Part shown: positions 930 to 47,700 of the stretch, one piece after another
Layout: each line of letters begins with the position of its first letter
Numbering within the stretch: the stretch's first letter is position 1
Source of the DNA: Camarhynchus parvulus
Lineage: Eukaryota > Chordata > Aves > Passeriformes > Thraupidae
Reading direction: 5' to 3'
Assembly (NCBI RefSeq): GCF_901933205.1
Contig: NW_022148556.1
Location: 62,001 to 126,000 of the forward strand
DNA: 64,000 bases
Notes under the pieces: model-generated
Told to the model about the DNA's origin: nothing
The model's database searches: none
Seen by the model: only the letters and a program-made list of their open reading frames with translations
Made by a program: the position numbers and the translations under genes

Positions 930-3900
930 CTGGGGGAGAGCCTGGTGAGCACCTGGAGCCCTCCCAGTCCATCCCAGTCCATCCCAGTTCATCCCAGTCC
1001 CATCCTAGTCCATCCCAGTCCATCCTATCCCAGCCCATCCCGTTCTATCCCAGTTGATTCGCATCCCGGACCAGGTGGATTTGGGGTCCCCCCGGAGCCT
1101 TTGAGAGACGTTTTGGGGCTGTGGACGCGCATGGTGAGCACCTGGAGCCCTCCCAGTCCATCCCAGTCCATCCCAGTCCCATCCCAGTTTGTCCCAGTGT
1201 GTCCCAGTCCCATCCCAGTCCATCCTATCCCATTCCATCCCATTCTATCCCCATCGGTTCTCTCCCAGACCAGGTGGGTTTGGGATCCCCCCGGAGCCTT
1301 TGAGAGATGTTTTGGGGCTGGGGACGCACATGGTGAGCACCTGGAGCCCTCCCAGTCCATCCCAGTTCATCCCAGTTTGTCCCAGTTTGTCCCAGTCCGT
1401 CCCAGTCCATCCCAGTCCCATCCCAGTTCATCCCAGTTCATCCCAGTCCCATCCCAGTCCATCCTATCCCAGCCCATCCCGTTCTATCCCAGTCGATTCG
1501 CATCCCAGACCAGGTGGGTTTGGGATCCCCCCGGAGCCTTTGAGAGATGTTTTGGGGCTGGGGGCGCACCTGGAGAGCACCTGGAGCCCTCCCAGTCCAT
1601 CCCAGTTCATCCCAGTTTGTCCCAGTTTGGCCCAGTCCATCCCAGTCCATCCTATCCCAGCCCATCCCATTCTATCCCCATCGGTTCTCTCCCACACCAG
1701 GTGGGTTTGGGATCCCCCCGGAGCCTTTGAGAGATGTTTTGGGGCTGGGGATGCACATGGTGAGCACCTGGAGCCCTCCCAGTCCATCCCAGTTCATCCC
1801 AGTTTGTCCCAGTCCCATCCCAGTCCATCCTATCCCAGCCCATCCCGTTCTATCCCAGTTGATTCGCATCCCAGACCAGGTGGGTTTGGGATCCCCCCGG
1901 AGCCTTTGAGAGACGTTTTGGGGCTGGGGACGCGCATGGTGAGCACCTGGAGCCCTCCCAGTCCGTCCCAGTTCATCCCAGTTTGTCCCAGTTTGTCCCA
2001 GTCCATCCCGGTTTGTCCCAGTTCATCCCAGTCCATCCCAGTCCATCCCAGTCCATCCCAGTTCATCCCATTCCATCCTAGAGCCTCCCAGACCAGGTGG
2101 ATTTGGGGTTCCCCCCAAGCATCTGAGAGATGTTTTGGGGCTGGGGGCGCACATGGTGAGCACCTGGGGCCCTCCCAGTTCATCCCAGTTCATCCCAGTT
2201 TGGCCCAGCCCATTCCCAATTCCAAAAACCCCACAAATGACCCCAAATGTCCCGACAGATGCAGCGGAAGCGGGACGAGTCGAGCAGGAATCCCATCCCA
2301 AACCCATCCCCAACCCCACAAATCCCACCGATAACCCCACAAATCCCACCGAATAACCCCATAAATCCCACAGATTACCCCATAAATCCCACAGATAACC
2401 CCACAAATCCCACAGATAACCCCATCAATGACCCCAAACCCCACAAACGACCCCATAAATCCCACAGATAACCCCATAAATCCCACCGATAACCCCATAA
2501 ATCCCACATAGAACACCGTCAATGACCCCAAACCCCATAAATAACCCCACAAACGACCCCATAAATGCCAAGCCACGCTCACAGATGCAGCGGGAGCGGG
2601 ACGAGTCGAGCAGGAATCCCATCCCAAACCCATTCCCAACCCCACAAATCCCACAGATAACCCCATAAATCCCACAGATAACCCCACAAATCCCACAGAT
2701 AACCCCATCAATGACCCCAAACCCCATCAATGACCCCAAACCCCACAAACGACCCCACAAACCCCAGACCCCACTCACAGATGCAGCGGGAGCGGGACAA
2801 GTCCAGCAGGAATCCCATCCCAAACCCATCCCCAGCCTCCATAAATGACCCCAAACCCCACAAATGACCCCATTAAAGACCTCAAACCCCACAAATTACA
2901 CCAAACCCCGCAAAAACCCCATAAATGATCCCATTAAAGACCCAACCTCCATGAATCCCACAGATAACCCCATCAATGACCCCAAACCCCACAAACGACC
3001 CCACAAACGCCAGACGCCGCTCACAGATGCAGCGGGAGCGGGACGAATCCAGCAGGGATCCCATCCCAAACCCATTCCCAACCCCACAAATCCCACAGAT
3101 AACCCCATAAATCCCACAGATAACCCCATGAATCCCACAGATAACCCCATCAATGACCCCACAAACGCCAGACGCCGCTCACAGATGCAGCGGGAGCGGG
3201 ACGAATCCAGCAGGAAGCCCGGCGGGCACAGGCAGGCGAAGCTGCCGCGGGTGTTGGTGCAGAGCCCGAGCTGGCACAGCGCCCCCTCCTGGCACTCGTC
3301 CACGTCTGGGGGGACACACGGACACGGGAGGGACACACGGACACGGGAGGGACACATGGACACGGGAGGGACAGAGGGACACGGAGGGACACACGGACAC
3401 GGGAGGGACAGACGGACACGGGAGGGACACACGGACACGGGGAGGGACACATGGACACGGGAGGGACACACGGACACGGGGAGGGACAGAGGGACACGGG
3501 GAGGGACACACGGACACGGGAGGGACAGACGGACACGAGGGACACACGGGAGGGACACACGGACACGGGAGGGACAGAGGGACACGGGAGGGACACACGG
3601 ACACGGGAGAAACGCAGAGGGACACACGGAGGGACACACGGACACGGGAGGGACAGACGGACACGGGAGGGACACACGGACACGGGAGGGACACACGGGA
3701 GGGACACACGGACACGGAGGGACAGACGGACACGGGAGGGACAGACGGACACGGAGGGACACACGGACACGGGAGGGACACACGGGAGGGACACACGGAC
3801 ACGGAGGGACACACGGACACGGGGAGGGACACACGGACACGGGAGGGACACACGGACACGGGGAGGGAGGCGTCAGTGGGCACCCCCCGATCGCAAAAAT

Positions 3901-9900: not shown

Positions 9901-12900
9901 GATTTTGGGGTGGGATCTGGGATGGGGGAAAAGGGGAGAATTTGTGGGGCGGGAATGGGGAAAATTTGGGGAAATCATCGGGGAATTTGGGAATTGAAAT
10001 CGGGGAATTGGGGTGGGGGGATCTGAGGATTTGGGGATTTGGGATTTAGGAATTTGTGGGGTGGGAATGGGGGAAGATTTGGGAAAATTGGGGAATTGAA
10101 ATGGGGAAAAAAAGAAAGGGGGAAATTTGAGGGGGAATTTGGGGAAGTTGGGAGAAACAGGGAGAGGGGGGATGGATTTGGAAGTGGGTAAGAGATCTAA
10201 AAAATAAAACGGGGGAAAATTGGGGAAAATAAAGGAATTGGGGAATTGGTGGGAAAAATCCTCAAAAAATTTTTTGGGGGATAGGGAAAAATCCCCTAAA
10301 ACCAATTTTTTGGGGGTGGGGATATGAAAATCCCTAAAACCAATTTTTTGGGGATGAAGGAAAACCTAAAACCAATATTTTTGGGGTGTGGATAATTAGG
10401 GAAAAATCCCTCAAAACCAATTTTTTGGGGATGATAATTAGGGAAAAATCCCCTAAAACCAATATTTTTGGGGTGTGGATAATTAGGGAAAAATCCCTTA
10501 AAAACCAATTTTTTGGGGGATGATAATTAGGAAAAAATCCCTTAAAACCAATTTTTTGGGGGGTGGATAATTAGGAAAAAATCCCTAACATTTTGGGGGT
10601 GAAATAACTTTTGGTGGATAGTGGAAAAATCCCTAAAACAATTTGGGGGTGGATAATTAGGGAAAAACCCTAAAAAACCAATTTTTGGGGGGGATAAATT
10701 AGGGAAAAATCCCCTAAAAACCCATTTTTTGGGGGTGGATAATTAGGAAAAAATCCCCTAAAACCAATTTTTTGGGGGGTGGATAATTAGGGAAAAATCC
10801 CCTAAAAACCAAATTTTTGGGGGAGGATAAATTAGGGAAAAATCCCCTAAAAACCCATTTTTTTGGGGGGTGGATAATTAGGAAAAAATCCCCTTAAAAC
10901 CCAAATTTTTGGGGGTGGATAATTAGGAAAAAATTCCCTAAAACCCCAATATTTTTTGGGATGATAATTAGGGAAAAATCCCCTCAAAATCCAATTTTTT
11001 GGGATGATAATTAGGAAAAAATCCCCTAAAAAACCAAATTTTTGGGGGATGATAATTAGGAAAAATCCCCTAAAAACCCAAATATTTTTGGGGATGATAA
11101 TTAGGGAAAAATCCCCTAAAACCCCAAATATTTTCGGGGGGGCTCTCACCATCCTCCTCGTCGCGGTGGTTGCTCAGGGGCAGGGTGTAGATGGAGCGGG
11201 TCAAGGCTTGGGGGCGCCCCCCCGTGGACGTTGTGGGGATTTGGGGCGCCCCCGTGGACGTTGCGGGGATTTGGGGCGCCCCCCCGTGGACGTTGCGGGG
11301 ATTTGGGGGCGCCCCCCGCGGGTTTGGGGCGCTCTCTTTGGTGCCGTTGCCCGAGGGGAGGTGACAAAACTTCCCGGTGAACTGGGGGGGGCACAGGCAG
11401 CGCTGGGGGTGGGCGCAGACCCCCCCGTTCCGGCAGAGCAGCGGGCACAGCACTGTGGGGAGGGGGACACCCCGAAATTAGAGAGAGCCCCCCAAAAAAA
11501 CCCCATAAAATCCCCAAAAACCCCGCCGAAAATAACCCCAAAAATGACCCCAAATCATCAAAATAACCCCAAAATTGGGTCCCCCCCATTTCGGCACAGC
11601 ACTGCGGGGGGAGGGACACCTGAAATTAGGAGCGCCCCCAAAAATAACCCAAAAACACCACCAAACCCAAAACCCAACCAAATCCCTTTACACTGGGGGG
11701 GGGGGACCCGAAAAAGAGAGCCCCCAAAATAACCCATAAAAATAACAGAAATTCCCCCCCGAAAATAACCCCAAAAATGACCCCAAATCATCAAAATAAC
11801 CCCAAAATTGGGTGTCCCCCCATTTCGGCACAGAACTGCGGGGGGAGGGACACCCCGAAATTAGGGAGCGCCCCCCAAAAATAACCCCTAAAAAACGACC
11901 ATAAAATCCCCAAAAAAACCCGCCCAAAATGACCCCAAAAATGACCCCAAATCATCAAAATAACCCCAAAAATAACGCCCAAAATAACCGCAAAATTTGG
12001 TGTGTCCCCCCCCCATTTCGGCACAGAACTGCGGAGGGGGACACCCCGAAATTAGGGAGGGCCCCAAAAAAACCTAAAAAGTAACCCAGAAATTCCCCAA
12101 AACCCGCCCAAAATAACCCCAAAAATGACCCCAAAATCATCAAAATAACCCCAAAAATAACCCCAAAAATAACCCCAAAATATCCCAAAATAACCCCAAA
12201 ATTGGGTGTCGACCCCGAAATTAGGGAGCGCCCCCCCCAAAAACTTAAAAAATAACCCAGAAATGCCCCAAAACCCGCCCAAAATAACCCCAAAAATGAC
12301 CCCCAAAATCATCAAAATAACCCCCAAAATAACCCCAAAATATCCCAAAATAACCCCAAAATGGGGTGTCGTCCCCTCCCCCATTTCGGCACAGCACTGC
12401 CGGGGGGGGGACACCCCGAAATTAGGGAGCCCCCCCCAAAAAAACCCATAAAATAACCCAGAAATTCCCCCAAAACCCCCAAAACAACCCAAAATCATTA
12501 AAATAACCCCAAAAATAACCCCAAAACTGGTTGCCCCCCCCCCCCATATTTTGGAACAGCATTGGGGGGGGGGAACACTCCAAAATTAGGGAGCCCCCCC
12601 TCAAAAAAAAAAAGGAAAAACGACCCCAAAAATTACCCAAAATACCCCAAAATAACCCTAAATTGTGGGGGGTTTAAGGGTTTTTTTCGGGGCGGGTCCC
12701 AGGAATTCGGGGGGGGAATTTTGGGGGGGGGGGGGGTCTCAGATATTTGGGGGGGACCCCAAAATTTGGGGGGAGAGGGGTCCCGGAAGGGATCGCGACA
12801 TTTGGGGGGGTCCCGGGGGGGGAATTTTGACTTTTGGGGTCGAACCAAACTTTTGGGGGGGGGGGGGTTCAAGGTGGGATTCCAAAATTTGGGGAGGGGG

Positions 12901-15562: not shown

Positions 15563-16620
15563 CGGGGGGGGACACTGAGGGGACACGCAGGGGACACCGA
15601 GGGGGGGACACTGAGCGCGGGGGGACACGGGTGGGAACCGCCCCGGGGGGGGGGGCGGGCCGGGGGCACGGGGACACGGGGCTTGGGGGGGGGACTGAGG
15701 ACATCCACACGAGATGGGGACAGGGGGGACACGGGGGGGACATGAGGGACAGATCGGGGGGGACACGGGGGGGACAAGGGGGGGACACGGGGGGACATGA
15801 GGGACAGATCGGGGGGGGACACGGGGGGGACAAGGGGGGACACGGGGGACATGAGGGACAGATCGGGGGGACACGGGAAGGACAAGGGGGGGGACATGAG
15901 GGACAGATCGGGGGGGACACGGGGGACAGAGTGGGGGGAACACGGGGGGGATTAAATGGGACTTAATGGGGGGGACACCGGGAGGGACAAGGGGGGGACA
16001 CTCGGGACAAGGGGGGCGACACGGGGGGGACACGAGGCGGGACAAGGAGGGGACACGAGTGGGGACACGGGGGGGACACTCGGGACAGACTGAGGGGGAC
16101 ACGGGCGACCCTGGCGAGCAGCAGAGCGGGGCCCGGCGCCATCGGGGGGGGACACTGAGGGGACACGGAGGGGGGGACACTGAGCGGGGGGGGGGGGACA
16201 CACGGTGGGAACCGCCCCGGGGTGGGGCCGGGCCGGGGGGGGGCGGGGAAACGCCCGGGGTGGGGCCCGAGCATCGCGGGACATGGGGGGGAGCGTGAGG
16301 GACAGAAGGGGGGGACACAGGCGACAAAGTGGGGGGGACGGGGGGGGGGAACGGGAATTAATGGCGGGGACACGGGCGGGACAAGGGGGGGACATGAGGG
16401 ACAGATCGGGGGGGACACGGGACCCCCAGGGGGACACGGAGGTGACAATGGGGGGGACACAGGGGGGACAATGAGGGGACACGGGGGTGACAATGGGGGG
16501 ACACGGGGGTGACAATGGGGGACACGGGGGTGACAATGGGGGACACGGGGGTGACAATGGGGGGACACGGGGGTGACAATGGGGGACACGGGGGTGACAA
16601 AGGGGGACACGCGGGGGTGT
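15563..16620. promoter_or_regulatory. LTBP4 upstream region with duplicated start segment
   Basis: GC-rich sequence upstream of the LTBP4 ATG, mostly GGGGGGACACGGGG units. A segment matching about 15535-15660 (end of exon 1, ATG, 5' flank with GGGAACCGCCCCGGGG) recurs at about 16110-16240. The copy keeps the ATG and [10 protein letters not shown] on the minus strand and then diverges. A promoter role is inferred from position and base composition only. Confidence 0.55.
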
Positions 16621-17280
<660 letters not shown>

Positions 17281-23140: not shown

Positions 23141-25020
23141 TTGGGGATTGGGATTTGGGGATTTGGGATCAGAATTTGGGATTTGGGATCAGGGACTGGG
23201 GCGGTTCCATGGGCAGTGCAGTGCGCCCCGCACGGCGCCCGGTGATTGGGGACGGGATTTGGGGATTTGGGGACTGGGATCGGGATTTGGGATCAGGATT
23301 TGGGATTTGGGATCAGGGACTGGGGCGGTTCCATGGGCAGTGCAGTGCGCCCCGCATGGCGCCCCGTGATTGGGGATCGGGATTTGGGGATTTGGGGACT
23401 GGGATCGGGATTTGGGATCAGGATTTGGGATCAGGATTTGGGATTTGGGATCAGGGACTGGGGCGGTTCCATGGGCGGTGCAGTGCGCCCCGCACGGCGC
23501 CCGGTGATTGGGGATCGGGATTTGGGGATTTGGGATCAGGATTTGGGATTTGGGATCAGGGACTGGGGCGGTTCCATGGGCAGTGCAGTGCGACCGCACG
23601 GCGCCCCGTGATTGGGGATCGGGATTTGGGGATTTGGGGACTGGGATCGGGATTTGGGATTTGGGATATGGGATATGGATTTGGGATATGGGATTTGGGA
23701 TTTGGGATCAGGATTTGGGATCAGGATGTGGGGTATGGGATTTGGGATTTGGGAATTTGGGATATGGGATTGGGATTTGGGATATGGGATTTGGGATCAG
23801 GATTTGGGATTGGGATTTGGGATATGGGATCTGGGATCAGGGTTTGGGATTTGGGATCACGATTTGGGATTGGGATTTGGGATTTGGGGACTGGGATTTG
23901 GGATATGGGATATGGGATCAGGATTTGGGATCAGGGATATGGGATTTGGGATTTGGGATACAGGATTGGGATTTGGGATCAGGATTTGGGATACGGGATT
24001 TGGGGATTTGGGGATTTAGGGACTGGGACTGGGGTTTGGGGTTTGGGATCGGGATTTGGGATATGGGATTGGGATTAGGGATTTGGGATTTGAGATTTGG
24101 GATCGGGGACTGGGGCGGTTCCATGGGCAGCAGATGGGGCTGCTGCGGGTGTGCAGGGCGGTGCAGTGCGTCCCACACAGCGCCCGGTGATTGGGGATCG
24201 GGATTTGGGATCGGGGATGGCATCAAGATTCGGGGATTTGGGCATTTGGGATCAGGGACTTGGGGTTTGGGATCAGGATTGGGGATTTGGGATCAGGAAT
24301 GGCATCAAGATTTGGGATTTGGGATTGGGATCACAATCTGTGATTTGGGTTCGGCAATGACACCAGGATTTGGGATTTGGGATCGGGATTTGGGATTGGG
24401 ATTGGCATCCGAACTGGAGATCAGGAATGGCATCGGCATTTGGGATCAGGATTTGGGATTGGGATTCGGGAAATGGGATCAGGATTTGGGATTGGGATTT
24501 GGGACCAGGAATGGCATCAGGATTTGTGATTTGGGATCAGGATTTGAGATTGGGATTTGGGAAATGGGATCAGGATTTGGGATTGGAGATTTGGGATTGG
24601 AGATTTGGGATTGGAGATTTGGGATTAGAGATTTGGGATTGGAGATTTGGGATTGGAGATTTGGGATTGGAGATTTGGGACTGGAGATTTGGGATGTTTG
24701 GGATTGGGATTGGATTGGATTTGGGACTGGAGATTTGGGATTGGAGATTTGGGATTGGAGATTTGGGAAGGATTTGGGATTGGAGATTTGGGATTAGAGA
24801 TTTGGGATTGGAGATTTGGGATTGGAGATTTGGGACTGGAGATTTGGGATTGGAGATTTGGGATTGGAGATTTGGGATTGGGAACAGGATCAGGATTCAG
24901 GATCAGGAACGGCATCGGGATTGGGGATTCGGGATCAGGATTTTGGATTTGGGATCGGGACACGCCCAAGGGCAGGGAAAGCTCCTGGAGGATTTGGGGA
25001 TCTTTTGAGGGGAACAGGGA
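23141..25020. repeat. NKPD1 3' region: tandem copies of the coding end
   Basis: Five further copies of the end of the NKPD1 coding sequence, including its stop context (GCGCCCGGTGATTGGGGAT), lie near 23213, 23334, 23478, 23578 and 24157, separated by GGGATTTGGGATCAGG units. The 24.13-kb copy reaches farther back into coding sequence (CAGCAGATGGGGCTGCTG). 24.55-24.90 kb is GGAGATTTGGGATT. Confidence 0.92.
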
Positions 25021-29700: not shown

Positions 29701-32700
29701 GGCTCCAAATCCATCGGGAACAGCCCCAGATCCGATGGGAACAACCCTGGATCCAACAGTAACCATGTTGGATCCATCGGGAACGGCCCCGGATCCATCA
29801 GGAGCAACCCTTGATCCATGGGGAACGGTGCTGGATCCATGGGGAACAATCCCAGATCCATCAGGAACAGCTCCAGATCCATCAGGAACGGCTCCAGATC
29901 CATCGGGAACGGCGCTGGATCCAATGGGAACAACCCTGGATCCATCAGAAATTGTCCCAGATCCATCAGGAACGGTGCCGGATCCATCGGGAACAGAGCT
30001 GGATCTGACGGGAACGGCTCCAGATCCATCAGGAATGACCCTGGATGCATCAGGAACAATCCCAGATCCATCAGGAACAACCCCAGATCCATCAGAAATT
30101 CCCCCAGATCCTTCAGGAACAACCGGAGATCCATCAGGAACGATCCCAGATCCTTCAGGAACAGTCTCAAATCCATCGGGAACGGCCCTGGATCCATTGG
30201 GAACGGCTCCAGATCCATCGGGAACGCCTCCAGATCCCTTGGGAGCATCTCCAGATGCCTCAGGAACAGTCCCAGGTTCCTTGGGAACGGCCCCGGATCC
30301 TTCCGGAACGTTCTCCACCCGCGTCACCACGAAGATCTTGCGGCCTCTGCCGGGGCTGGAGACGGAAATCCTGCGCTCGCCATTCCCGGAATTCCCGGAA
30401 TTCCCGCAAGATTCCACAACCTCCCTCGAGTCCTTCCCATCCTCCTCCTCCTCCTCCTCCTCCTCGGTGTCCGAGCTGGAATCTCCGGCTGGGGCCGCGT
30501 TGCCGTTCTCCTCCGGGCCGGGGGAAACGCCCTCGGGAATTTCGGGAATTTCGGGGATTTCGGGAATTTCGGGGTCGCCGCCGGAGATCTCGGCCATGGA
30601 GGCCGAGTGCTGGAGCTGCTGCTCCTTCTCCTCCTTCTCCTTGGCCAGGATGAAATTCCGCTTGCAGCCGTTCTGGATCTCGGCCAGCAGCGCCTTCTGC
30701 GTCTCCAGGAAGCTCTTGACCTGCCGGGGGGAAAAATTCGGGAATGGCGGGAAAATCCCCGGGAATCCCAGCGGGAATGGCGGGACAGGAGGATTTTTTG
30801 GGGAATTTTAGGAATTCCAGCCCAAACCAACCTCTTCCTTGGGCTCGAGCTCGAATCCCAAACCCCCAAACTCCCAACACCTCAAGGCGCCATTTCCCGC
30901 TCCGGGAACGCCCCAGAACCATGGGGATTTTTGGAAATTCCCAGAATTTTTTTGGGAATTCCCAGAATTTTTTGGGAATTCCAGGATTTTTTTGGGAGAA
31001 TTCCGGGAATTCCAGCCCAAACCAACCTCTTCCTTGGGCTTGAGGTCGAATCCCAAACCCCCAAATCCCCAAACCCCAACACCTCAAGCGCCGTTTCCCG
31101 CTCCGGGAACACCCCAGAACCGCGGGGATTTTTTTGGTAACTCCCGGAATTTTCTGGGAATTCCGTGGATTTTTTTGGGAATCCCGGGACTCACCGCCTC
31201 CTTCTTGGGCTCATGCTCAAACCCCCAAACCCCCAACTCCCAAATCCCCAAACCCCAACACCTCAAGCGCCGTTTCCCGCTCCGGGAACGCCCCAGAACC
31301 GCAGGGATTTTTTTGGTAACTCCCGGAATTTTTTGGGAATTCCGTGGATTTTTTTGGGGAATCCCGGGACTCACGGCCTCCTTCTTGGGCTCGCGGTCGA
31401 GGTCGAGGCGCAGCAGGGAGTGGTTGACGCGCACCGCCAGCGACAGCGCCATGAGCCCCCCGGTTTTGATGTCGTTCTCGCGCAGGTCCAGGCGCAGCAG
31501 CCGGGGCTCTCGGCCACGAACTCGGCCACGGCCACGGCCCCTGCGGGAAAAAAAATCCCGGGGATTGGGGGGGAAAATATCCCAGGAGTTGGGGGAAATA
31601 TCCCGGGAAATTGGGGGAAATATCCCGGGAAACTGGGGGGAAATATCCCGGGAACTGGGGGGAAATATCCCGGGAAATTGGGGAAAATATCCCGGAAATT
31701 GGGGGAAATATCCCAGGAAATTGGGGGGAAACATCCCGGGAATTGGGGAAAATATCCTGGGAAATTGGGGGGAAAATATCCCGGGAAATTGGGGAAAATA
31801 TCCCGGGAATTGGGGGGGAAATGTCCTGGGAACTGGGGGGGAAAATCCTGGGAATTGGGGGGGAAAATCCTGGGAATTGGGGGCGAAAATCTCCCGGGGA
31901 TTGGGGGGAAAATATCCCGGGAAATCATGGGGATTTCGGGGAAAAAATCCCAGGAATTTGGGGGGAAGAATCCTGGGAATTGGGGGGAAAATATCCCGGG
32001 AACTGGGGGGAAAATATCCCGGGAACTGGGGGAAAAAATCCCGGGAAATTGGGGGAAAATATCCCGGGAAATTGGGGGAAATATCCCGGGGATGGGGGGA
32101 AAATAGCCCGGGAAATTGGGGGGAAAATATCCCGGGAAATCATGGGGATTTGGGGGGAAAAATCCCAGGGATTGGGGGAAAATATCCCGGGAGTTGGGGG
32201 AAAATATCCCGGGAATTGGGGGAAAATATCCCGGGAAATTGGGGAAAATATCCCGGGAAATTGGGGGGAAATATCCCAGGAAATTGGGGGAAAACATCCT
32301 GGGAAATTGGGGAAAATATCCCGGGAAATTGGGGGAAATATCCCGGGAAATTGGGGAAAATATCCCAGGAAATTGGGGAAAATATCCTGGGAATTGGGGG
32401 GGAAATATCCCGGGAAATTGGGGAAAATATCCCGAATTGGGGAAAATATCCCGGGAAATTGGGGAAAATACCCCGGGAAATTGGGGAAAATATTCCGGGA
32501 GTTGGGGGAAAATATCCCAGGAAACTAGTGGGAAAATATCCCAGGAATTGGGGGAAAATATCCCGGGGATTGGGGAAAATATCCCAGCAAATCATGGGGA
32601 TTTCGGGAAAAAATCCCAGGAATTTGGGGGGAAGAATCCTGGGACTTGGGGGGAAAATATCCCGGGGACTGGGGGGAAAATATCCCGGGAATTGGGGGAA

Positions 32701-35700
32701 AATATCCCGGGAACTGGAGGGGAAAATATCCTGGGAATTGGGGGAAAATATCCCAGGAAATTGGGGAAAATATCCCGGGAAATTGGGAAAATATCCCGGG
32801 AGTTGGGGGAAAATATCCCGGGAAACTGGGGGGAAATATCCCAGGAAATTGGGGGGAAAATATCCCGGGAAATTGGGGAAAATATCCTGGGAAATCAGGG
32901 GGATTTGGGGGAAAAATCCCTGGAATTGTGGGGAAAACCCGGGAAATCAGGGAAAAATCCGAGAAATCGGGAAAATTGGGAATCGATTCGGGCTCCAGAG
33001 GCTCAAACCAACTTTTCCAGGTCCATCTCAACTTCTCCAACCCCATCTCAACTTTCCCACCCCAACTTTCCCACCCCAACCTTCCCAAGCCCATCCCAAC
33101 TTTTCCAATCCCATCCCAGTTTTCCCATCCCAACTTCCCCAATCCGATCTCAACTTTCCCAAGCCCAACCCAACTTCTCCCATCCCCACCCCAACTTTCC
33201 CATCCCATCTTTACCAATCCCATCTTTCCCATCCCAATTTCCCAACCCCATCCCAACTCTTCCATCCCAACTTTACCAATCCCAACTTTCCCACCCCAAC
33301 TTTCCCAATCCCATCCCAACCTTCCCACCCCAATTTCCCACCCCACCTCCCATCCCACTTCCCAACCCCTCCCAACTCTCCCCCAACCCCCATCCCAACC
33401 CCCACCCATCCCAACTTTCCACCCCCCCATCCCCACCCCCAACTCCCACCCAATTTCCCATCCCAACTTCTCCCATCCCCACCCCAACTTTCCCACCCCA
33501 ACTTTCCCATCCCAACTTTCCCATCCCAACTTTCCCATCCCCATCCCAACTTTCCCATCCCAACTTTCCCACCCCAACTTTCCCATCCCAATTTCCCATC
33601 CCCACCCCAACTTTCCCACCCCAACTTTCCCACCCCAATTTCCCATCCCCATCCCAACTTTCCCACCCCAACTTTCCCATCCCAATTTCCCATCCCCATC
33701 CCAACTTTCCCACCCCAACTTTCCCATCCCAATTTCCCCATCCCCACCCCAACTTTCCCACCCCAATTTCCCATCCCCATCCCAACTTTCCCACCCCAAC
33801 TTTCCCATCCCAATTTCCCATCCCCACCCCAACTTTCCCACCCCAACTTTCCCATCCCAATTTCCCATCCCAACTTCTCCCATCCCCACCCCAACTTTCC
33901 CATCCCACTTCCCATCCCACTTCCCATCCCACTTCCCATGCCCACCCCAACTTTCCCACCCCAACTTCCCATCCCCACCCCAACTTTCCCACCCCACTCC
34001 CCATCCCCATCCCAGCTTCCCACCCCACCTCCCACCCACTTCCCATCCCCACCCCAACTTTCCCACCCCAACTTTCCCATCCCAATTTCCCATCCCAACT
34101 TCTCCCATCCCCACCCCAACTTTCCCATCCCAATTTCCCATCCCAATTTCCCATCCCACCCCACCCACCCCCACTCCCACCCAATTCCCATCCCCACCCC
34201 AACTTTCCCACCCCAATTTCCCATCCCCACCCCAACTTTCCCATCCCAACTTTCCCTACCCAACTTCATCCCCATCCCAACTTTCCCACCCCCTTACACA
34301 AACTCCCATGCCCATCCCACGCGACCCAGCCCCCGGGACCGTCTAGGCAAAGGTGAGCTTGGTGCAGGCACCAAGGCCGTACGGAGCGGTTCCCGATCAA
34401 GCCGTTCTTCAGGTTCCACGACGCCCCCCGAAAACCCACGCGTGGCCCAGGTTCAGCGCGCTCCAGGGCGCAATGCCTGGAAAACGGAAAATCCGCGGGA
34501 AATCCATGGGGAACCCATGGAAAATCCGTGGGAAAGTCTAGAGAAATTTCATGGAAAAATCTAGAGCAAATCCATGGGAAAATCCATGGGAAAGCCATGG
34601 GGATCCAGGGAAAATCCATGGGAAAATCTAGAGAAAATTCATGGAAACACCTAGAGAAAACCCATGGGAAAATCCATGGGAAAATCCATGGGAAAGTCTA
34701 GAGAAAATTCATGGAAAAATCTAGAGCAAATCCATGGGAAAATCCATGGGAAAATCCATGGGGATCCAGGGAAAAATGCATGGGAAAATCCCTGGGAAAC
34801 CCATGGGAATTCATGGAAAAGCCATGGGACAATCTAGAGAAAATTAATGGAAAAATCTAGAGCAAATCCATGGGAAATTCATGGGAAAATTTAGGGAAAA
34901 TTCATGGGAAAATCTAGAGCAAATCCATGGAAAAATCTAGAGCAAATCCATGGGAAAAGCCATGGGAGAATCTAGAGAAAATTAATGGAAAAATCTAGAG
35001 GGAATCCATGGGAAAATCCATGGGAAAATCCATGGGGAAATCCATGGGAATTCATGGAAAAGCCATGGGAGAATCTAGAGAAAATTAATGGAAAAATCTA
35101 GAGAAAATCCATGGGAAAATCCATGGGGAAATCCATGGGAAACCCACGGGGATCCATGGAAAATCCATGGGAAAAATCTAGAGAAAATTCATGGAAAACC
35201 AACAAAACCCCACAGGAAACCAACGGAAAACCCCAGAAATCCACAAAATGAAACAACAACAACAAAAAAAATCAATCAACATTTTTCCCGGAACGCCGGG
35301 AACGCCGGGAACGTGGTAACGCCCGGAACGCCGGGAACGCGGGAACGCGGGAACGCCGGGACGCTCACCAGGGTCATGCCCAGGTAGGCCATGCCGGCGT
35401 GGCTCAGCTGGTTGTTCCAGAGCACCAAGGTCACCAAACCCCGGCGCTGCTCCCGCAGCCCCTCGCAGATGTAGGCCAGGCCTGGAAAAGGGGGAAAACC
35501 CCGGGAAATCCCGGGAAATCGGGGCTTAGACCCGGCCTGGAAAATCCTGGGATTAGGCCAGGCCTGGAAATATGGGAATAGCTGGGAAATCCTGGGAAAT
35601 GGGGATTTAGGTCAGGCCTGGAAAAGCGGGGATTAGGGATTCCCAAACCTTTTCCCAGATCCCGTTCCCACGTTCCCAAACCCCAAAATTCCCAGAATTC

Positions 35701-38700
35701 CCGTTATTTTTCCCCACCCAAGTCCATGAGGTGGTTGTTGCCCATTCCCACATTCCCAGAATTCCCGGAATTCCTGTTATTCCCACTCGAGTCCATTAGG
35801 TGGTTGTTGCCCATTCCCATATTCCCGGAATTCCCAAAATTCCCGGAATTCCCACCGGAGTCCATGAGGTGGTTGTTGCCCATTCCCACATTCCCAGAAT
35901 TCCCAAAATTCCCAGAATTCCCACCGGAATCCATGAGGTGGTTGTTGCCCATTCCCACATTCCCAGAATTCCCAGAATTCCCACCGGAGTCCATGAGGTG
36001 GTTGTTGCCCATTCCCAAACCCCATTCCCACATTCCCAAACCCCAGAATTCCCGGAATTCCCGGAATTCCCACCAGAGTCCATGAGGTGGTTGTTGCCCA
36101 TTCCCACATTCCCAGAATTCCCGGAATTCCTGGAATTCCTGGAATTCCCACGGAATCCATGAGGTGGTTGTTGCCCATTCCTGAACCCCATTCCCACATT
36201 CCCAGAATTCCCAGAATTCCCAAAATTCCCGGAATTCCCACCGGAATCCATGAGGTAGTTGTTGCCCATTCCCAAACCCCATTCCCACATTCCCAAAATT
36301 CCCACATTCCCAGAATTCCCAAAATTCCCAGAATTCCCAGAATTCCCACCAGAGTCCATGAGGTGGTTGTTGCCCATTCCCACATTCCCAGAATTCCCAG
36401 AATTCCCAGAATTCCCAGAATTCCCACCAGAGTCCATGAGGTGGTTGTTGCCCATTCCCACATTCCCAGAATTCCCAGAATTCCCACCAGAGTCCATGAG
36501 GTGGTTGTTGCCCATTCCCACATTCCCAGAATTCCCAGAATTCCCAGAATTCCCACCAGAGTCCATGAGGTGGTTGTTGCCCATTCCCACATTCCCAGAA
36601 TTCCCAGAATTCCCAGAATTCCCACCAGAGTCCATGAGGTGGTTGTTGCCCATTCCCACATTCCCAGAATTCCCAGAATTTCCAGAATTCCCACCAGAAT
36701 CCATGAGGTGGTTGTTGCCCATTGCCAAACCCCATTCCCACAGTTCCCACATTCGAATTCCCAGAATTCCCACCAGAATCCATGAGGTGGTTGTTGCCCA
36801 TTCCCACATTCCCAAAATTCCCAAAATTCCCGGAATTCCCACCAGAGTCCATGAGGTGGTTGTTGCCCATTGCCAAACCCCATTCCCAGAGTTCCCACAT
36901 TCCCGGAATTCCCGGAATTCCCACCGGAATCCATGAGGTGGTTGTTGCCCATTCCCAAACCCCATTCCCAGAATTCACAGAATTCCCAAACCCCAAAATT
37001 CCCAAATTCCCACCAGAGTCCATGAGGTGGTTGTTGCCCATTCCCAAACCCCATTCCCAGAGTTCCCACATTCCCGGAATTCCCGGAATTCCCGGAATTC
37101 CCACCGGAGTCCATGAGGTGGTTGTTGCGCAGGTCCAGGATCTGGATGCAGCCGTTGAACTTGAGCAGGTTCCCGAGCTGGGCCGAGTCCTGCAGCCCGT
37201 TGAGCTTGTTGTCAGCCAGGTACAGCTCCCGGAGCGTCACGTTCATCTTCAGCGCCGTGGCTGCGCGAAAAATGGGGAGAAAAATGGGAAAAATGGGAAA
37301 AAACGGGAAATAAATAACTGGGAATGGGAAATGGGAATGGGAAATGGGAAATGGAATGGGGAATGGGGAATGGGAAATGGGAAATGGAACTGAGGCTGTT
37401 GTCAGCCAGGTACAGCTCACGGAGCGTCACGTTCATCTTCAGCGCCGTGGCTGCGGCAAAAACGGGAAAAAATGGGAAAAATGGGAAAAAACGGGAAATA
37501 AATAACTGGGAATGGGAAATGGGAATGGGAAATGGGAATGGGAAATGGGAAATGGGAAATGGGAAATGGGAATGGGAAGTGAGGCTGTTGTCAGCCAGGT
37601 ACAGCTCACGGAGCGTCACGTTCATCTTCAGCGCCGTGGCTGTGGCAAAACGGGAGAAAATGGGGGAAAAATGGGAAAAAAACGGGAAATAAATAACTGG
37701 GAATGGGAAATGGGAATGGGAAATGGGAAATGGGAAATGGAAGTGAGGTTGTTGTCAGCCAGGTACAGCTCAGAGAGAGTCACGTTCATCTTCAGCGCCG
37801 TGGCTGTGCGGGAAAAATGGGGAAAAAAAGGGGAAAATGGGAAAAAACGGGAAATAAATAACTGGGAATGGGAAATGGGAAATGGGAAATGGGAAATGGG
37901 AAATGGAACTGAGGCTGTTGTCAGCCAGGTACAGCTCACGGAGCGTCACGTTCATCTTCAGCGCCGTGGCTGTCTGGAAAATGGGGAGAAAAATGGGAAA
38001 AATGGGAAAAAACGGGAAATAAATAACTGGGATGGAAATGGGAAATGGGAAATGGGAAATGGAATGGGAAATGGGAAATGGAACTGAGGCTGTTGTCAGC
38101 CAGGTACAGCTCCCGGAGCGTCACGTTCATCTGCAGCGCCGTGTGTGGAAAATGGGGAGAAAAATGGGAAAAATGGGAAAAAACGGGAAATAAATAACTG
38201 GGAATGGGAAATGGGAATGGGAAATGGGAAATGGGGGAAATGGGAAATGGGAAATGGAACTGAGGCTGTTGTCAGCCAGGTACAGCTCCCGCAGCGTCAC
38301 GTTCATCTTCACGCGCGCTGCGGAAATGGGAAAAATGGGAAACGGAAAAACGGGGAAAAAATGGGAAAAATGGGAAAAAACTGGAAATAAATAACTGGGA
38401 ATGGGAAATGGGAATGGGAATGGGAAATGGGAAATGGAACTGAGGTTGTTGTCAGCCAGGTACAGCTCCCGCAGCGTCACGTTCATCTTCAGCGCCGTGG
38501 CTGTGCGGAAAATGGGGAGAAAAATGGGAAAAATGGGAAAAAACGGGAAATAAATAACTGGGAATGGGAAATGGGAAATGGGAATGGGAAATGGGAAATG
38601 GGAAATGGGAAATGGGAAATGGAACTGAGGCTGTTGTCAGCCAGGTACAGCTCACGGAGCGTCACGTTCATCTTCAGCACCGTGGCTGTGCGGAAAATGG

Positions 38701-41700
38701 GGAGAAAAATGGGAAAAATGGGAAAAAATGGGAAATAAATAACTGGGAATGGGAAATGGGAATGGGAAATGGGAAATGGGAAATGGGAAATGGGAAATGG
38801 GAAATGGGAAATGGAACAGAGGTTGTTGTCAGCCAGGTACAGCTCAGAGACAGTCACGTTCATCTTCAGGGCCGTGGTTGTGCGGAAAAATGGGGAAAAA
38901 ATGGGAAAAATGGGAAAAAACGGGAAATAAATAACTGGGAATGGGAAATGGGAATGGGAAATGGGAAATGGGAAATGGGAAATGGAACTGAGGCTGTTGT
39001 CAGCCAGGTACGGCTCAGAGAGAGTCACGTTCATCTTCAGCGCCGTGGCTGTGCGGAAAAATGGGGAAAAAATGGGGAAAATGGGAAAAAACGGGAAATA
39101 AATAACTGGGAATGGGAAATGAAATGGGAAATGGAAATGGGAAATGGGAAATGGGAAATGGGAAATGGGGACAGCACCAAGAGCACCACCAGGAACAGCA
39201 GGAAAATAAGGGGGGAAATGGGAAAAAATGGGTGGGAAAATGGGGAAAAATGGGTGGGAAAATGGATGGGAAAACTGATGGAAAAATGGGTGGAAAAATG
39301 GGGAAAAATGGGTGGGAAAATGGGTGGAAAAATGGGAGAAATGGGTGGGAAAATGGGTGGAAAAATGCGTGAAAAGACTGATGGAAAAATGGGAAAAAAT
39401 AGATGGAAAAATGAGTGGAAAATGGATGGAAATGGGAAAAAATTGATGGGAAAATGGGAAAAATTGATAGAAAATGGATGGGAAAATGGGCAAAATGGAT
39501 AGAAAAACTGGTGGAAAACAGATGGAAACGGATGGAAAATGAGTGGGAAAATGGGAAAAGTGGATGGAAAATGGATGGGGAAACTGATGGAAAAATGGGA
39601 AAAAATTAATGGAAAAATGGATGGGAAATGGGAAATAAATAGATGGGAAAATGGGTGGGAAAATGGATGGAAAATGAGGGGAAAATGGGTGGGAAAAATG
39701 GAGAAAATGGGTGGGAAAATGGCTGGAAAATGAAGGGGAAAATTTGATGGAAAAATGGGTGGGAAAATGGGGAAAAATGGATTAAAATGGGTGGGAAATT
39801 GATGGAAAATAGGTGGAAAATGAGTGAGAAAACGGGAAAAAAATCAATGGAAAATGGGTGGGAAAATGGGTGGGAAATTGGTGGAAAATGGGAAATAAAT
39901 GGGAGAAATGGGTGGGAAAATGGGAGGGAAAATGGACGGAAAATGGGCAGAAAATGAGCAAGAAAATGAGAAAAAATGGGAGAAATGGATGGAGAAATGG
40001 GTGGGAAAATGGGAGAAATGGAGAGAAAAATAAGCGGGAAAATGGACGGAAATGTGTGGAAAAATGGGAAAAATTGATGGAAAAATGGGGAAAATCCCCC
40101 CCAGAAATTCCCAGTCCCTCCCTTCCCCACCCCAGCGGAAATTCCAGAATTTTCTGGGATTTTTGGGGCCCTGACCGAGCAGCATGAGGGGCCTCCCGGA
40201 CAGTGAGGTGTTCTCCAGGTGCAGCACCACGAGGCTGCTGCTGATGCGAGGGGGCGCAACAGCGCCAGCCGAGGGCTCCAGCGCTGCGCATGTTCGGGCC
40301 CCAGGTACTGCAGGCAGCTGGTCTGGGGGGAAAATAGGGGATTTGGGGTGAAAAATGGGGGATTTGGGGTCATTGAAACACACCCAGGTACTGCAGGCAG
40401 CTGGTCTGGGGAGAAAATGGGGATTTGGGGTGAAAAATGGGGGATTTGGGGTGAAATAAATGGGATTTGGGATCATGGAAACACACCAGGTACTGCAGGC
40501 AGCTGGTCTGGGGAGAAAATGGGGTTTGCAGGGGGATTGGGGAAAAAAAGGGGGGATTTGGGGTCATTGAAACCCACCCAGGTACTGCAGGCAGCTGGTC
40601 TGGGGGGAAAAGGGGATTTGGGGTATGGGATTTCAATAAAAAATGGGATTTGGGGTGAAAAAATGGGATTTGGGATCATTGAAACCCACCAGGTACTGCA
40701 GGCAGCTGGTCTGGGGGAAAAAGGGATTTGGGGTGAAAAATGGGGGATTTGGGATCAAAAAACGGGATTTGGGGTCATTGAAACCCCCCCAGGTACTGCA
40801 GGCAGCTGGTCTGGGGGAAAAATGGGGTTTGGGGTGAAAAATGGGGGATTTGGGGTGAAATAAATGGGATTTGGGGTCATTGAAACCCACCCAGGTACTG
40901 CAGGCAGCTGGTCTGGGGGGATAAATGGGGTTTGGGGTGAAAAATGGGGGATTTGGGATCAAAAAATGGGGATTTGGGGTCATTGAAACCCACCAGGTAC
41001 TGCAGGCAGCTGGTCTGGGGGGAAATATGGGATTTCAATTTAAAAAATGGGGTTTGGGAGCAAAAAAAATGGGATTTGGGAACAAGGAAATTGGGATTTG
41101 TGGTTGGGATTTGGGATCAGGAAATTTGGGGGAAATCTGAGCCGGGGTATTTAGGGAAACATCCCAGAATTCCCAGGAGAATTTGGGAATTTTGGGGACG
41201 GACCCCCCATAGCAGAATTCCGAAAATTGGATTGGGAAAAAAAATTGGGATAAAAAGTTTGGGATCAAAAAACACTCCCAAAGCACCTCTGGGGAAAACA
41301 AAGAATTTTGAAAGGAAGAGGGTTTGATCGCCCCACACGATTCCCAAAAAATTCCACCCGTTGGTGGCCCCAAAGGGAAACGAGGGGGATGGGAAAGAAC
41401 CAAACCAAGAGGGGGGAAAGGGATCCGGACATTTGATAAGGGATATTTATGGGGAATGGAGAACAAAACTGTGGGTAATTAACCCTTTGTTGGAGCAGGA
41501 TTTGTTACGAATTGGGGGGGCCCAAAGGGAAGCGGGGGGGCAGGAATTTGGGGGATTCCATAAATGATTCCCAAGGAATTTTGGGCAATTTCGGGAATTC
41601 TGGGAATTTTGGTCCCAGGAATTTGGAAAGTGCTTTGGGGATTCGGGGGATTCCCAGGAATTTGGGGAATTTCAGGGAATTCCGAGAAATAATTCCCAGG

Positions 41701-44700
41701 AATTTGGGGAATTTCAGGGAATTCCTGGGAAATGATTCCCAGGAATTTTGGGAATTTCAGGGGATTCCGGGAGTGATTCCCAGGAATTTTGGGAATTTCA
41801 GGGAATTCTGGGAAACAATTCCCAGAGATTTTGGGGATTTCAGGGAATTCCGAGAAATAATTCCCAGGAATTTGGGGATTTCAGGGAATTCTGGGAAATG
41901 ATTCCCAGGGATTTTGGGAATTTCAGGGAATTCCGGGAAATAATTCCCAGGAATTTTGGGGATTTCAGGGAATTCCAGGAAGGATTCCCAGGAATTTTGG
42001 GGATTTCAGGGAATTCTGGGAAATAATTCCCAGGAATTTTGGGGATTTCAGGGAATTCCAGGAAGGATTCCCAGGAATTTTGGGAATCAAATGGAAATCC
42101 AGGATTTTGGTTTAATTGGGACAATCCCCAGGTTTTGGGATAGGAATTCGAATAATTCCGGTTTTGGGATTTGGGAAAGGAGGATCCCAAATTTTGATCA
42201 GGAATTCTGGGATATTTGGAATTTTGGAATTTAGAGGAAATAATTCCCAGGAATTTTGGGGATTTCAGGGAATTCTGGGAAACAATTCCCAGGAAGTTTG
42301 GGGATTTCAGGGGATTCCGGGAAGGATTCCCAGGAATTTTGGGAATTCTCACCTTCCTGAGTGTGAGCCATCCCTGCCCCTGCCAGGCACAAAACCCCTC
42401 AGGAGTGGCAGAAATTCCTTGGAATTCCAGGAATTTTGGGAAAAAAAAACCCTCAGGAATTTTGGGGAATTTCAGGGAATTCCGGGAAGGATTCCCAGGA
42501 ATTTTGGGAATCCTCACCTTCCTCATCACCCGTGCAGCCACCCACCCTCCCTGGCTATGAAAAACCTCAGGAATGGCAGAAATTTTGGGAAAATCCCCAA
42601 AATTCCAGGAATTTTGGGAAAACCTCAGGAATTTTGGGAATTTCAGGGAATATCGGGAAGGATTCCCAGGGGTTTTTGGGATTTCAGGGGATTCCGGGAG
42701 TGATTCCCAGGAATTTTGGGAATTTCAGGGGATTCCGGGAAGGATTCCCAGGAATTTTGGGGATTTCAGGGAATTCCGGGAAGGATTCCCAGGGATGTTT
42801 GGGAATCCTCACCTTCCTCATCATGTGCGCGGCCGCCTGCCAGCCCCGCGGGCCCAGGTGTTTGTTGGCGCCGATGTTGAGGTGCGTGGCCGACTCGTAG
42901 TACTCGATCATGTCAAAGAGAGCCGAGGCGCCCTGGGGAAAATCAGGGGGAAACATCAGGGGGAAATCAGGGGGAAATCGGGGGGAAATCGGGGGAAAAT
43001 TGGGAGGAAATCGGGGGAAAATCGGGGGAAAATCAGGGGGAAATCAAGGGAAATAATGGGGAAAATCAGGGAAAAGTCATGGCAAAAATCGGGGGAAATC
43101 AGGAGGAAATCAGGGAAAAATCGGGGGAAAATCAGGGGAAAAATCAGGGGAAAATCAGGGGGAAATCAAGGGAAATAATGGGGAAAAATCAGGGAAAAGT
43201 CATGGCAAAAATTGGGGAACGTCATGGGAAAAATCAGGGGGAAATCAGGGAAAAATCGGGGGAAAATCAGGGGGAAATCAAGAGAAATAATGGGGAAATA
43301 GTGGGGAAAAATCAGGGGGAAATCAGGGAAAATCAGGGGGAAATCAAGGGAAATAATGGGGAAAAATCAGGGAAAAGTCATGGGAAATATCAGAGGGAAA
43401 TCAGGGAAAAGTCAGGGGGAAATCAAGGGAAATAATGGGGAAATAGTGGGGAAAAATCAGGGGGAAATCAGGGAAAAATCGGGGGGAAATCAGGGAAAAA
43501 TCGGGGGAAAATCAGGGGGAAATCAAGGGAAATAATGGGGAAAATCAGGGAAAAGTCATGGCAAAAATCAGGGAAAAAACAGGGAAAAATCAGGGGAAAA
43601 GTCATGGTTAAAATCAGGGGAAAAATCGGGGAAATCAGGGAAAAATCAGGGAAAAGTCAGGGGGAAAAGTCATGGGAAAAATCAGGGGGAAATCACGGAA
43701 GAATCAGGGAAAAGTCATGGGAAATAGTGGGGAAAAGTCAGGGAAAAACGGGGGAAAATCGGGGAAAAGTCAGGGAAAAAACATGGGGGAAAATCATGAG
43801 AAATAGTGAGGAAAAATCAGGGGAAAATCAGGGAAAAATGGGGGAAAAGTCAGGGGAAAATCAGGGGAAACTCAGGGAAAAGTCGTGGAAAATAGTGGGG
43901 AAAAATCAGGGAAAAGTCAGGGAAAAAAATCAGGGAAAAAATCAGGGAAAAATAAGGAAATAAGGGAAAAGTCATGGGAATTAGTGGGGGAAAATCAGGG
44001 AAAAAATGGGGGAAAAATGGGAAAAAATCAGGGAAAAATAAGGGAAAAGTCACAGGAAATAGTGGGGGAAAATCAGGGAAAAAACGGAGAAACAATCAGG
44101 GAAAAAATCAGGGAAAAATCAGGGAAAAGTAATGGGAAATAACAGTGAAAGGTCAGGGGGAAATCATGGGAAAAATCATGGGAAAAGTCAGGGGAAAATC
44201 AGGGGAAAAATCAGGGGAAAATCAGGGAAAAATGGGGGGAAAGTCAGGGGAAAAATCAGGGGGAAATTCCCCCAAAAATTCCCAAAATTTAAAAAAAAAT
44301 TCCCCAAAAAATTCCAAAAAAATCCGAAAAATTCCCCAAAAACTCCACCAAAAAATTAAAAAAAAACCCAAAAAATTCATAAAATTTTCCCCAAAATTCC
44401 CCAAAAATTCCAAAAAAAAGATCCAAAAAATTCCACCAAAAATTCCCAAAAATTTCAAAAACATTCCCCCAAAAAATCCCAAAAATTCCCCAAAATTTCC
44501 CCCAAAATAAAAAAAAAGTTCCAAAAAAACCCCAAAGATTTCAAAGAAATTCCCCAAAATCCCCCAAAATTCCCCCAAAATATTCCCCAAAATTCTCCAA
44601 CAACTCCACCAAAAATTAATAAAAAAAAATCCCCAAAAATTTCCCAAAAAATTCCCCAGAAATTCCCTGGAATTCCCGGGGTGCCACTCACGTCCTCGTC

Positions 44701-47700
44701 CAGGCTGGTTTGCTCCAGGTCGAGCAGTTTGAACTGGAGCCGCTTGAAAATCTCCTCCATGGCCTCGCAGGAGCGGTAATCCAGCTTTTCTCCTGGAAAA
44801 ACAACAGCAACATTCCCAAAAATCCCTGGGAAAAATCCCCAGAAAGTCCCCGAGAGATTCCCAAGAGATTCCTGAAAAATTCCTGAGAAAATCGTGGGAA
44901 AATTCCGGAGAAATTCCCAAGAAATTGTCAAGAAATTCCTTCAAAACTCCTGAAAAATTCCTGGGAAATTCCTGAGAAATTCCCGGGAAATCCCTGGGAA
45001 AATCAACAGAAAGTCCCTGAGAGATTCCCAAGAGATTCCTGGAAAAATTCCTGAGAAAATCGTGGGAAATTCCTGAGAAATTCCCAAGAAATTCCTAAAA
45101 AATTCCCAAGAAAATTTAAAAAAATTTCCCCAAAACTCCTGAGAAATCCCTGGGAAAATCCCCAGAAAATCTCTGAGATATTCCCAAGAAATTCCTGGAA
45201 AATTCCCGAGAAAATCGCGGGAAAATTCCTGAGAAATTCCCAAAAAATTCCCAAGAAATTTTCAAGAAATTCCTTCAAAACTCCTGAAAAATTCCTGGGA
45301 AAATCCCCAGAAAGTCCCTGAGGTATTCCCAAGAAATTCCTGAAAAATTCCTGAGAAAATCGTGGGAAAATTCCTGAGAAATTCCCAAGAAATTCCTGAG
45401 AAATTCCCAAGAAATTCCAGAGAAATTCCTGAGAAATTCCTGGGAATTCCCGGAAAAATTCCTGGGAAATCCCTGGGAAAATCCCCAGCAAGTCCCCAGA
45501 GGTAATCCAGCTTTTCTCCTGGAAAAAAATAACGGGAAAATTCCCAAAAAATTAATGGGAAAATTCCTGGCAAAATCCCCAGAAAGTGCCTGAGGTATTC
45601 CCAAGAGATTCCTGGAAAAATCCTGAGAAAATCGTGGGAAAATTCCCAAGAAAATGTCAAGAAATTCCCCAAAACTCCTGAGAAATTCCCAAGAAATTCC
45701 TGAAAAATTCCTGGGAAAATCCCCAGAAAATCTCTGAGATATTCCCAAGAAATTCCTGGAAAATTCCTGAGAAAATTGTGGGAAAATTCCTGAGATATTC
45801 CCAAGAAATTCCAAAAAAATTCCCAAGAAAATTTCAAGAAATTTCCCCAAAACTCCTGAGAAATCCCTGGGAAATTCCTGAGGAAAATTCCTGGGAAATC
45901 CCTGGGAAATTCCCAAGAAAGACCTGAGAAAAAGCCGAGAAATTCCCAAAAAATTCCTGAGGAATTCTTGAGGAACTCCTGGAAAATTCCTGGGAAATTC
46001 CCAAGAAAATCCCAAGAAATTTCAGAGAAATTCCCGAGAATTCTCCAAAATTCCTGAGAAAACCCCAAGACATTTCTGAGCAACTCCAGAAAAATTCCCA
46101 AAAATTCCTGAAGAAATCCCGAGAAATTCCTGAGGAAATCCCAAGAAATTCCCAAAAAGTTCCGGAGAAAATCTCAAGAAATTCTCAACTGCAAAAAAGC
46201 TGGAAAAATCTGGAAAAGGGAGAAAAAAATCCGGGAAAATCTGGGAACTCACCCTTGAGATCCAAGCAGTCGATCCTGGGAGCCAGGTCCTTGAATTCCT
46301 GCAAAACACCAAAAAATGGGAATTTTGGGGGAAAAAAAGGGATTTTTGAGGGATAAAAAGGGATTTTTTGGGGGATAAAAAAGGGATTTTGGGGGAGGAT
46401 AAAAAGGGATTTTTTGGGGGGGAAAAAGGGATTTTTTTGGGGGGGAAAGGGATTTTTTGGGGATAAAACGTAGAAAAAAAAGGGATTTTTTGGGGATAAA
46501 AAAGGGATTTTTAGGGGTAAAAAAAGGGATTTTTTAGGGAGATAAAAAAGGGATTTTTGGGTGGGGGAAAGAGGATTTTTTGAGGGTAAAACATAGAAAA
46601 AGAAAGGAATTTTCTGGGGGAAAAAAGGGGTTTTTGGGGGTATAAAAAAGGGATTTTGGGGGGTAAAAAAAAGGGGATTTTTGTGGGATAAAAAAGGGAT
46701 TTTTTGGGGGATAAAAAAGGAATTTTTTGGGGAATAAAAAGGGATTTTTTGGGGTAAAAATGGGGATTTTGGGGGTAAAAAAAAGAGATTTTTGGGGGAG
46801 ATAAAAAGAGATTTTTTGGGGGGATAAAAAGGGATTTTGGGGGATAAAAATGGATTTTTTTGGGGATAAAAACGGGGATTTTGGGGGGTAAAAAAGGGAT
46901 TTTTGGAGGAGATAAAAAGGGATTTTTTGGGGGATAAAAAAGAGCTTTTTGGGGGGATAAAAAGGGATTTTTTGGGGGGATAAAAAGGGATTTTTGGGGC
47001 AGAAAAAAGGTATTTTTTGGAGGATAAAAAGGGATTTTTTGGGGGTAAAATGGGACTTTGGGGTAGGGGGGAGAAAAAAGGGATTTTTGGGGGATAAAAA
47101 GGATTTTGGGGGGGATAAAAAGGGATTTTTTGGGAATAAAAAGGGAGTTTTTGGGGCAGAAAAAGGTATTTTTGGGGGATAAAGGAGGATTTTTTGGGAT
47201 AAAAATTGGGATTTTGGGGGCTAACAAAAGGGATTTTTGGGGGAGATAAAAAGGGATTTTTTTGGGGGGATAAAAAGGGATTTTTGGGGGATAAAAAGGG
47301 ATTTTTGGGGGGATAAAAAGGGATTTTTTGGGGCAGAAAAAAGGTATTTTGGGGGTAAAAGGGATTTTTGGGGGTAAAATGGGGACTTTGGGGGAAAAAA
47401 AAAGAGATTTTTGGGGGAGATAAAAAGGGATTTTTGGGGGGGATAAAAAGGGATTTTGGGGAGATAAAAGGGATTTTTTGGGGGGATAAAAAGGGATTTT
47501 TGGGGCAGAAAAAAGGTATTTTTTGGGGGATAAAAAGGGATTTTTTGGGGATAAAAATTGGGATTTTGGGGGCTAAAAAGGGATTTTTGGGGGAGATAAA
47601 AAGGGATTTTTGGGGGGATAAAAAGGGATTTTTGGGGGATAAAAAGGGATTTTTTGGGGGGATAAAAAGGGATTTTTGGGGCAGAAAAAAGGTATTTTTT

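Follow-up and report, generated by a model that had tools for sequence, protein, structure and literature searches.

Why should introns be filled with copies of the edges of the exons that they separate? The question is raised by a 64,000-nucleotide stretch of Camarhynchus parvulus DNA (the window; positions 62001-126000 of the 135,625-base contig NW_022148556.1, in an assembly of 1.05 Gb and 1343 contigs), in which exons of LTBP4, NKPD1 and PPP1R37 are accompanied by copies of their own borders. The original prediction described about 70 such copies, always on one side of the exon, and took them for splice sites repeatedly captured by intron minisatellites of a class not yet described. The copies were found again, and they are direct, local and border-spanning. 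They are very probably cases of exon stuttering, left behind as a by-product of local tandem duplications that occur often in genes with non-coding DNA made up almost entirely of tandem repeats. Tandem Repeats Finder (TRF) assigned 81% of the contig, and 84% of the sequence outside annotated exons, to such repeats.

Twenty-one exons (42 edges) of the three genes were placed in the window, with borders taken from the reading frame and the splice site. They are labelled L (LTBP4), N (NKPD1) and P (PPP1R37), and LTBP4 EGF exons outside the window are labelled E. The following were damaged or uncertain and were omitted from every count: PPP1R37 exons 2 and 9, a putative LTBP4 exon at about 13.4 kb, and the donor of E9. 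The main scan, ungapped and anchored on each exon border, found 55 copies on the expected side at 14 of the 42 edges (Table 1). In LTBP4 these were the L1 start (1 copy), L3 acceptor (2) and L7 donor (4); in NKPD1 the N1 donor (2), N2 acceptor (3), N3 acceptor (1) and N4 stop (5); and in PPP1R37 the P4 acceptor (1), P5 donor (1), P6 acceptor (7), P7 acceptor (8), P7 donor (17), P8 acceptor (2) and P10 donor (1). With LTBP4 exons 1, 2 and 6 of the original prediction taken as L1, L3 and L7, its 13 edges are these 14 minus P8. Allowing gaps added two P7 acceptor copies and one P7 donor copy; a few more were visible by eye, as were further gapped L3 acceptor copies. Thus 55 of the roughly 70 copies predicted stand as ungapped matches, and the gapped ones only bring the total towards 70.

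Table 1. Exon-edge copies in the window (window coordinates; exon positions in parentheses)
Feature	Position	Strand	Extent and evidence
LTBP4 coding-start copy (ATG + 26 nt), upstream of L1 (15301-15562)	16114..16142	-	29/29 nt identical; blastn and border scan
Acceptor copies of LTBP4 L3 (11150-11452)	11593..12396	-	borders 12396 and 11601, 9 nt of exon each
4 donor copies of LTBP4 EGF exon L7 (3183-3305)	2257..3056	-	32-34 nt of exon each; blastn, scan, alignment
2 copies of NKPD1 N1 coding part (17852-17874) with donor	18019..18230	+	blastn and border scan
Acceptor copies of NKPD1 N2 (19176-19347)	18529..18821	+	36, 47 and 8 nt of exon; blastn and scan
Acceptor copy of NKPD1 N3 (20127-20261)	19897..19939	+	43 nt of exon; blastn and scan
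5 NKPD1 coding-end copies with stop codon (N4, 21459-23140)	23211..24190	+	blastn, scan, alignment
Acceptor copy of PPP1R37 P4 (44692-44792)	45498..45518	-	21 nt; border scan
Donor copy of PPP1R37 P5 (42813-42932)	42518..42528	-	11 nt of exon + 15 nt of intron; border scan
7 acceptor copies of PPP1R37 P6 (40176-40322)	40383..41014	-	22-24 nt of exon each; blastn, scan, alignment
10 acceptor copies of PPP1R37 P7 (37105-37260)	37397..39048	-	up to 54-60 nt of exon; 8 ungapped
18 donor copies of PPP1R37 P7	35718..37040	-	about 24-27 nt of exon each; 17 ungapped
2 short acceptor copies of PPP1R37 P8 (35369-35481), weak	35554..35617	-	border scan
Donor copy of PPP1R37 P10 (31375-31540)	31195..31212	-	18 nt; border scan; two more by eye

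The controls of the same scan were nearly empty. Two copies lay on the wrong side, both at N1, an exon whose 23-nt coding part is copied whole, and one was antisense. Wrongly paired edges and introns gave no match in 1,369,440 bases. Chance likeness between low-complexity introns and exon edges is therefore ruled out for the main arrays, where by blastn many copies match their exon over 20-60 nt with an identity of 90-100%. One real case of it exists, a simple repeat inside P11 that resembles the P7 intron array, and the L3 and P8 copies, with 9-14 nt of exon, remain weak; as an account of the arrays at large, chance is extremely improbable.

A blastn search of the window with exon sequence only gave the same picture. 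At 36 bits or more the adjoining stretches held 22 upstream matches (one overlapping another) and 25 downstream, with no antisense match in the window, and each of the seven distal matches belonged to the simple repeat of P11. The best scores of ten shuffled controls ranged from 0 to 40.1 bits. With a threshold of 42.1 bits there were 21 upstream and 19 downstream matches, including those at start and stop edges. Over the whole contig, 91 matches lay near their own exon. Of these, 63 extended to the border and lay on the expected side, with a single place counted twice, for E7 and its duplicate E7b; 3 were antisense and 25 lay off the border, so that pieces of exon interior were not equally common. 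The 25 comprised 15 from the P11 simple repeat, four from P7 and four from E7/E7b, these eight being read as diverged edge copies, and one each from N2 and N4, both inside edge-bearing copies.

The pattern was not confined to the window. The remaining 71.6 kb of the contig, with 13 LTBP4 EGF exons (one a duplicate), held 22 copies at 8 of 25 usable edges. The EGF acceptors there also gave 119 wrongly paired and 6 wrong-side matches; because these exons are paralogous, the wrongly paired control is void for them, and each of the 119 that was inspected proved to be a copy or an end of another EGF exon. Among five 10-kb stretches from other contigs, chosen for sharing a repeat with the window, exons could be named in three. 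Their three genes carried 11 copies at 4 of 16 edges (BOP1 acceptor 5, BOP1 stop 1, eIF3c donor 4 and SIPA1-like donor 1), with no wrongly paired match in 0.417 Mb and a single wrong-side match, at the SIPA1-like gene. The last gene is SIPA1-like by our assumption, profile and structure searches having given no match. All sets pooled, 88 copies were found at 26 of 83 edges, on four contigs. Inside and outside the window alike, the repeat unit reaches tens of bases into the exon, so that growth of an array multiplies splice sites, as had been predicted.

These data bear on two further explanations. A mobile element, or one that otherwise disperses and copies splice sites, could account for many copies at many edges, but the copies adjoin only their own exon; such an element is highly improbable and was rejected, since the wrongly paired controls (1.37 and 0.417 Mb, void for the EGF exons) held no copies at unrelated places. 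Alternatively, noisy reads could have been misassembled into repeated exon edges. PPP1R37 exon 6 (40176-40322), PPP1R37 exon 9 (34340-34480) and the large NKPD1 exon (21459-23140) do look frameshifted, which may reflect consensus errors or real damage. However, the copies differ among themselves and from the exon, and the pattern occurs on four contigs; on these two grounds pure assembly stutter was rejected. The corresponding chicken case, described below, was moreover checked on raw nanopore reads (PMC12954441). An artefact is thus very unlikely, although copy numbers may still be wrong in the assembly.

The restriction of acceptor copies to the upstream side and of donor copies to the downstream side held well (55 copies on the expected side against 2), but it does not mark a special element. 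Whenever a tandem duplication straddles an exon border, the exon stays intact, and acceptor copies end up upstream of it and donor copies downstream. When random duplications touching an exon were simulated, with exon lengths as observed and unit lengths set by us at 60-250 bases, 73% crossed one edge only, 14% were internal and 13% took the whole exon. Counting each edge with copies as one founder, we observed 26 one-edge founders, one whole-exon founder (E7/E7b) and two internal ones (L3 and P11); comparison of the one-edge share with the geometric expectation gave p 0.057. As a product of geometry, the side rule favours local duplication over dispersal and is no argument for a splice-aware element, and there is little need of selection to explain it.

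Nor is a capture of splice sites as such supported. Start and stop edges had copies in 3 of 7 cases, compared with 23 of 76 splice edges (Fisher p 0.67). The three are the NKPD1 stop (five copies), the LTBP4 start (one) and the BOP1 stop, whose coding end is copied in the 3' flank (L021:8379-8600; one ungapped copy and a second, diverged one by eye). With start and stop edges copied no less often than splice edges, and with a side rule that is geometric, no splice-aware mechanism is needed. The further claim that no copy spans an exon of normal length failed outside the window, where LTBP4 E7 (contig 47829-47960, 132 nt) is duplicated as a whole in E7b (46671-46801, 131 nt), 1.16 kb apart. E7b carries both acceptor and donor and, by eye, differs from E7 by two substitutions and one missing base; if not a sequencing error, the missing base would put E7b out of frame. 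More diverged donor-edge copies lie near the two exons (contig 46671-47960).

Comparison of copies within arrays indicates how they arose. In most aligned arrays the copies share one exon-side end (exon base at which they stop: P6, 22-24; P7 acceptor, 54-60; P7 donor, 133; L7, 90-92; N4, 1646-1648), the N2 copies, which end at 36 and 47, being an exception. Changes absent from the exon are also common to copies; 10 of the 18 P7 donor copies, for example, have TCT in place of TCC. Shared breakpoints and shared changes suggest that each edge was probably caught once or a few times and then amplified, so that founding events are probably far fewer than copies. Repeated capture in the sense first proposed is not supported; most copies look secondary. 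The most distal NKPD1 stop copy also contains a more internal piece of the exon (window 24126-24144), as if the first duplication at that edge had been longer than the later unit. We suppose that a founding duplication spanning the border between intron and exon would leave the exon intact and a spare edge in the intron, and that slippage or unequal exchange would then amplify the unit like any minisatellite. The duplicated edge would survive because the message is unchanged while the exon-proximal site is used, and most copies would be neutral decoys, decaying along with the array. A very high rate of local tandem duplication would be enough for this, the founding and amplifying steps being reconstructed from the sequence of one assembly.

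The state of the copies was used to weigh this account against selection, under which the extra splice sites would be used and the arrays kept because they tune splicing or supply alternative exon segments. In the whole contig AG is retained in 34 of 36 acceptor matches and GT in 21 of 22 donor matches, a retention that favours selection but is not clearly above the general identity of the copies. The exon's own nine splice-site bases are present in 10 of 26 donor copies, and 2 of the 10 P7 acceptor copies have lost AG (8/10 retain it by alignment; an automated table gave 7/10, one copy having an indel). A coding-change test covered 11 arrays, with six indel-bearing or strongly diverged copies excluded. 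Of 42 distinct changes in the copies, 23 alter the amino acid. Dinucleotides mostly kept, together with many amino-acid changes, are as expected of copies that serve as unused decoys. Two results weigh on the other side. Synonymous changes, 19 of the 42, exceed the 29% expected (p 0.027), and in 8 of 10 arrays, among them P7, P6, L7, N4, E10, E12 and E6, the exon part diverges less than either of the intron parts next to it. The synonymous excess is mild and we do not read it as function, and the divergence test is biased by the way in which the copies were found; finding bias, low-complexity alignment and silent change on the exon lineage may be the source of both signals.

Some copies can also be read as in-frame mini-exons. 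By eye, 3 of the 7 P6 copies consist of AG, 21 nt and GT, in frame, encoding TSCLQYL, and 4 of the 10 P7 acceptor copies have a GTGAGC donor 30 nt past the AG, also in frame. The arrays could thus act as an exon nursery, in which some copies are spliced in as extra segments and retained for that reason; if true, this would explain the lower divergence of the exon parts. We consider it improbable. Selection in general is likewise unlikely, given the amino-acid changes, the lost AGs and the copying of start and stop edges, which have no need of splicing.

These arrays stand beside a phenomenon that has been described, contrary to what was first thought. Hron et al. (2026, Genome Biol Evol evag038, PMC12954441) report, for the dot chromosomes of chicken, ‘exon stuttering’ or ‘sequence stuttering’, in which the lateral part of an exon and its splice site are copied through the adjacent intron. 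They count 236 such introns in 115 genes, 190 of these introns on dot chromosomes. More than 90% of the copied sources lie within 1 base of an exon border, with 1-44 copies (median 4) and a median exon part of 36 bp. Lengths of stuttering introns differ between individual birds, and repeat expansions were also noted in other birds; as causes the authors suggest replication stress, G-quadruplexes or meiotic conversion (PMC12954441).

The present arrays resemble the chicken ones in that edges are copied directly and locally, with the splice site, into repeat-dense introns, which in both cases are heavily covered by simple repeats. The source reaches the border here too, in 63 of 91 matches, with 15 of the other 28 due to one simple repeat, and matches of at least 20 nt and at least 42.1 bits occur in proximal introns. 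By hand count 6 of 18 inter-exon intervals are affected, in a window picked for the feature, against 190 of 5,572 chicken dot introns. In the chicken description coding regions are intact and repeats stay out of exons; some exons here look frameshifted, consensus errors being possible, and L3 and P11 hold internal repeats. The chicken cases lie on dot chromosomes and vary in length between individuals; ours come from one assembly and, in the window, from one contig without chromosome assignment. By the features compared, coding-region intactness excepted, the present arrays can be assigned to exon stuttering. Copies of start and stop edges and a whole-exon copy occur here and were not found in the parts of Hron et al. 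consulted, the main text of which contains none of LTBP4, NKPD1, PPP1R37, ‘UTR’ and ‘stop codon’ (PMC12954441).

In the literature searched, ‘exon stuttering’ or ‘sequence stuttering’ appeared in one paper only, and a search on the three genes in chicken or birds at large found no report of edge-copy arrays. A minisatellite of the IFI6 type, to go by a title, reportedly has repeats that carry the host gene's splice donors, which are used in the transcript; this is one locus with used donors, while here many edges are involved and the copies are known from sequence alone. In human segmental-duplication genes, minisatellites at exon-intron boundaries alter splicing patterns (PMC2812944), but the part of that work consulted concerns repeats variable between paralogs and the formation of novel introns, not edge copies through repeat-filled introns. 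GC-rich avian genes have introns and flanks made of tandem repeats, as here, without exon-edge copies being described in the portion of that paper used (PMC6792250). A phenomenon that came into print only in 2026 is seen here independently and at high density, and the range of explanations is narrowed. What is added is the duplication of start and stop edges and of one whole exon alongside splice edges. Splice-site choice also has a natural testing ground in these arrays, P7 facing 18 near-equal donors and 10 near-equal acceptors.

The gene names rest on the following. PPP1R37 was named by tblastn with a human protein sequence; a solved-structure search with one of its exons gave no match. NKPD1 was named from a KAP_NTPase match, and LTBP4 from TB and EGF_CA matches, with LTBP-1 and fibrillin among the matching solved structures; both identities also lean on what we take these genes to look like. 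Two exons hold internal repeats. P11 (window 29441-30237, minus) has a long internal coding repeat with a unit of about 21 bp, GS-AVP-like, which gives many blastn self-matches, and L3 has about three internal tandem units of 30-32 bp at window 11211-11316 (minus). Finally, an array of about 191 copies of a 9-bp unit, with extreme strand skew, occupies window positions 6063-7821 and ends just before LTBP4 exon L5.

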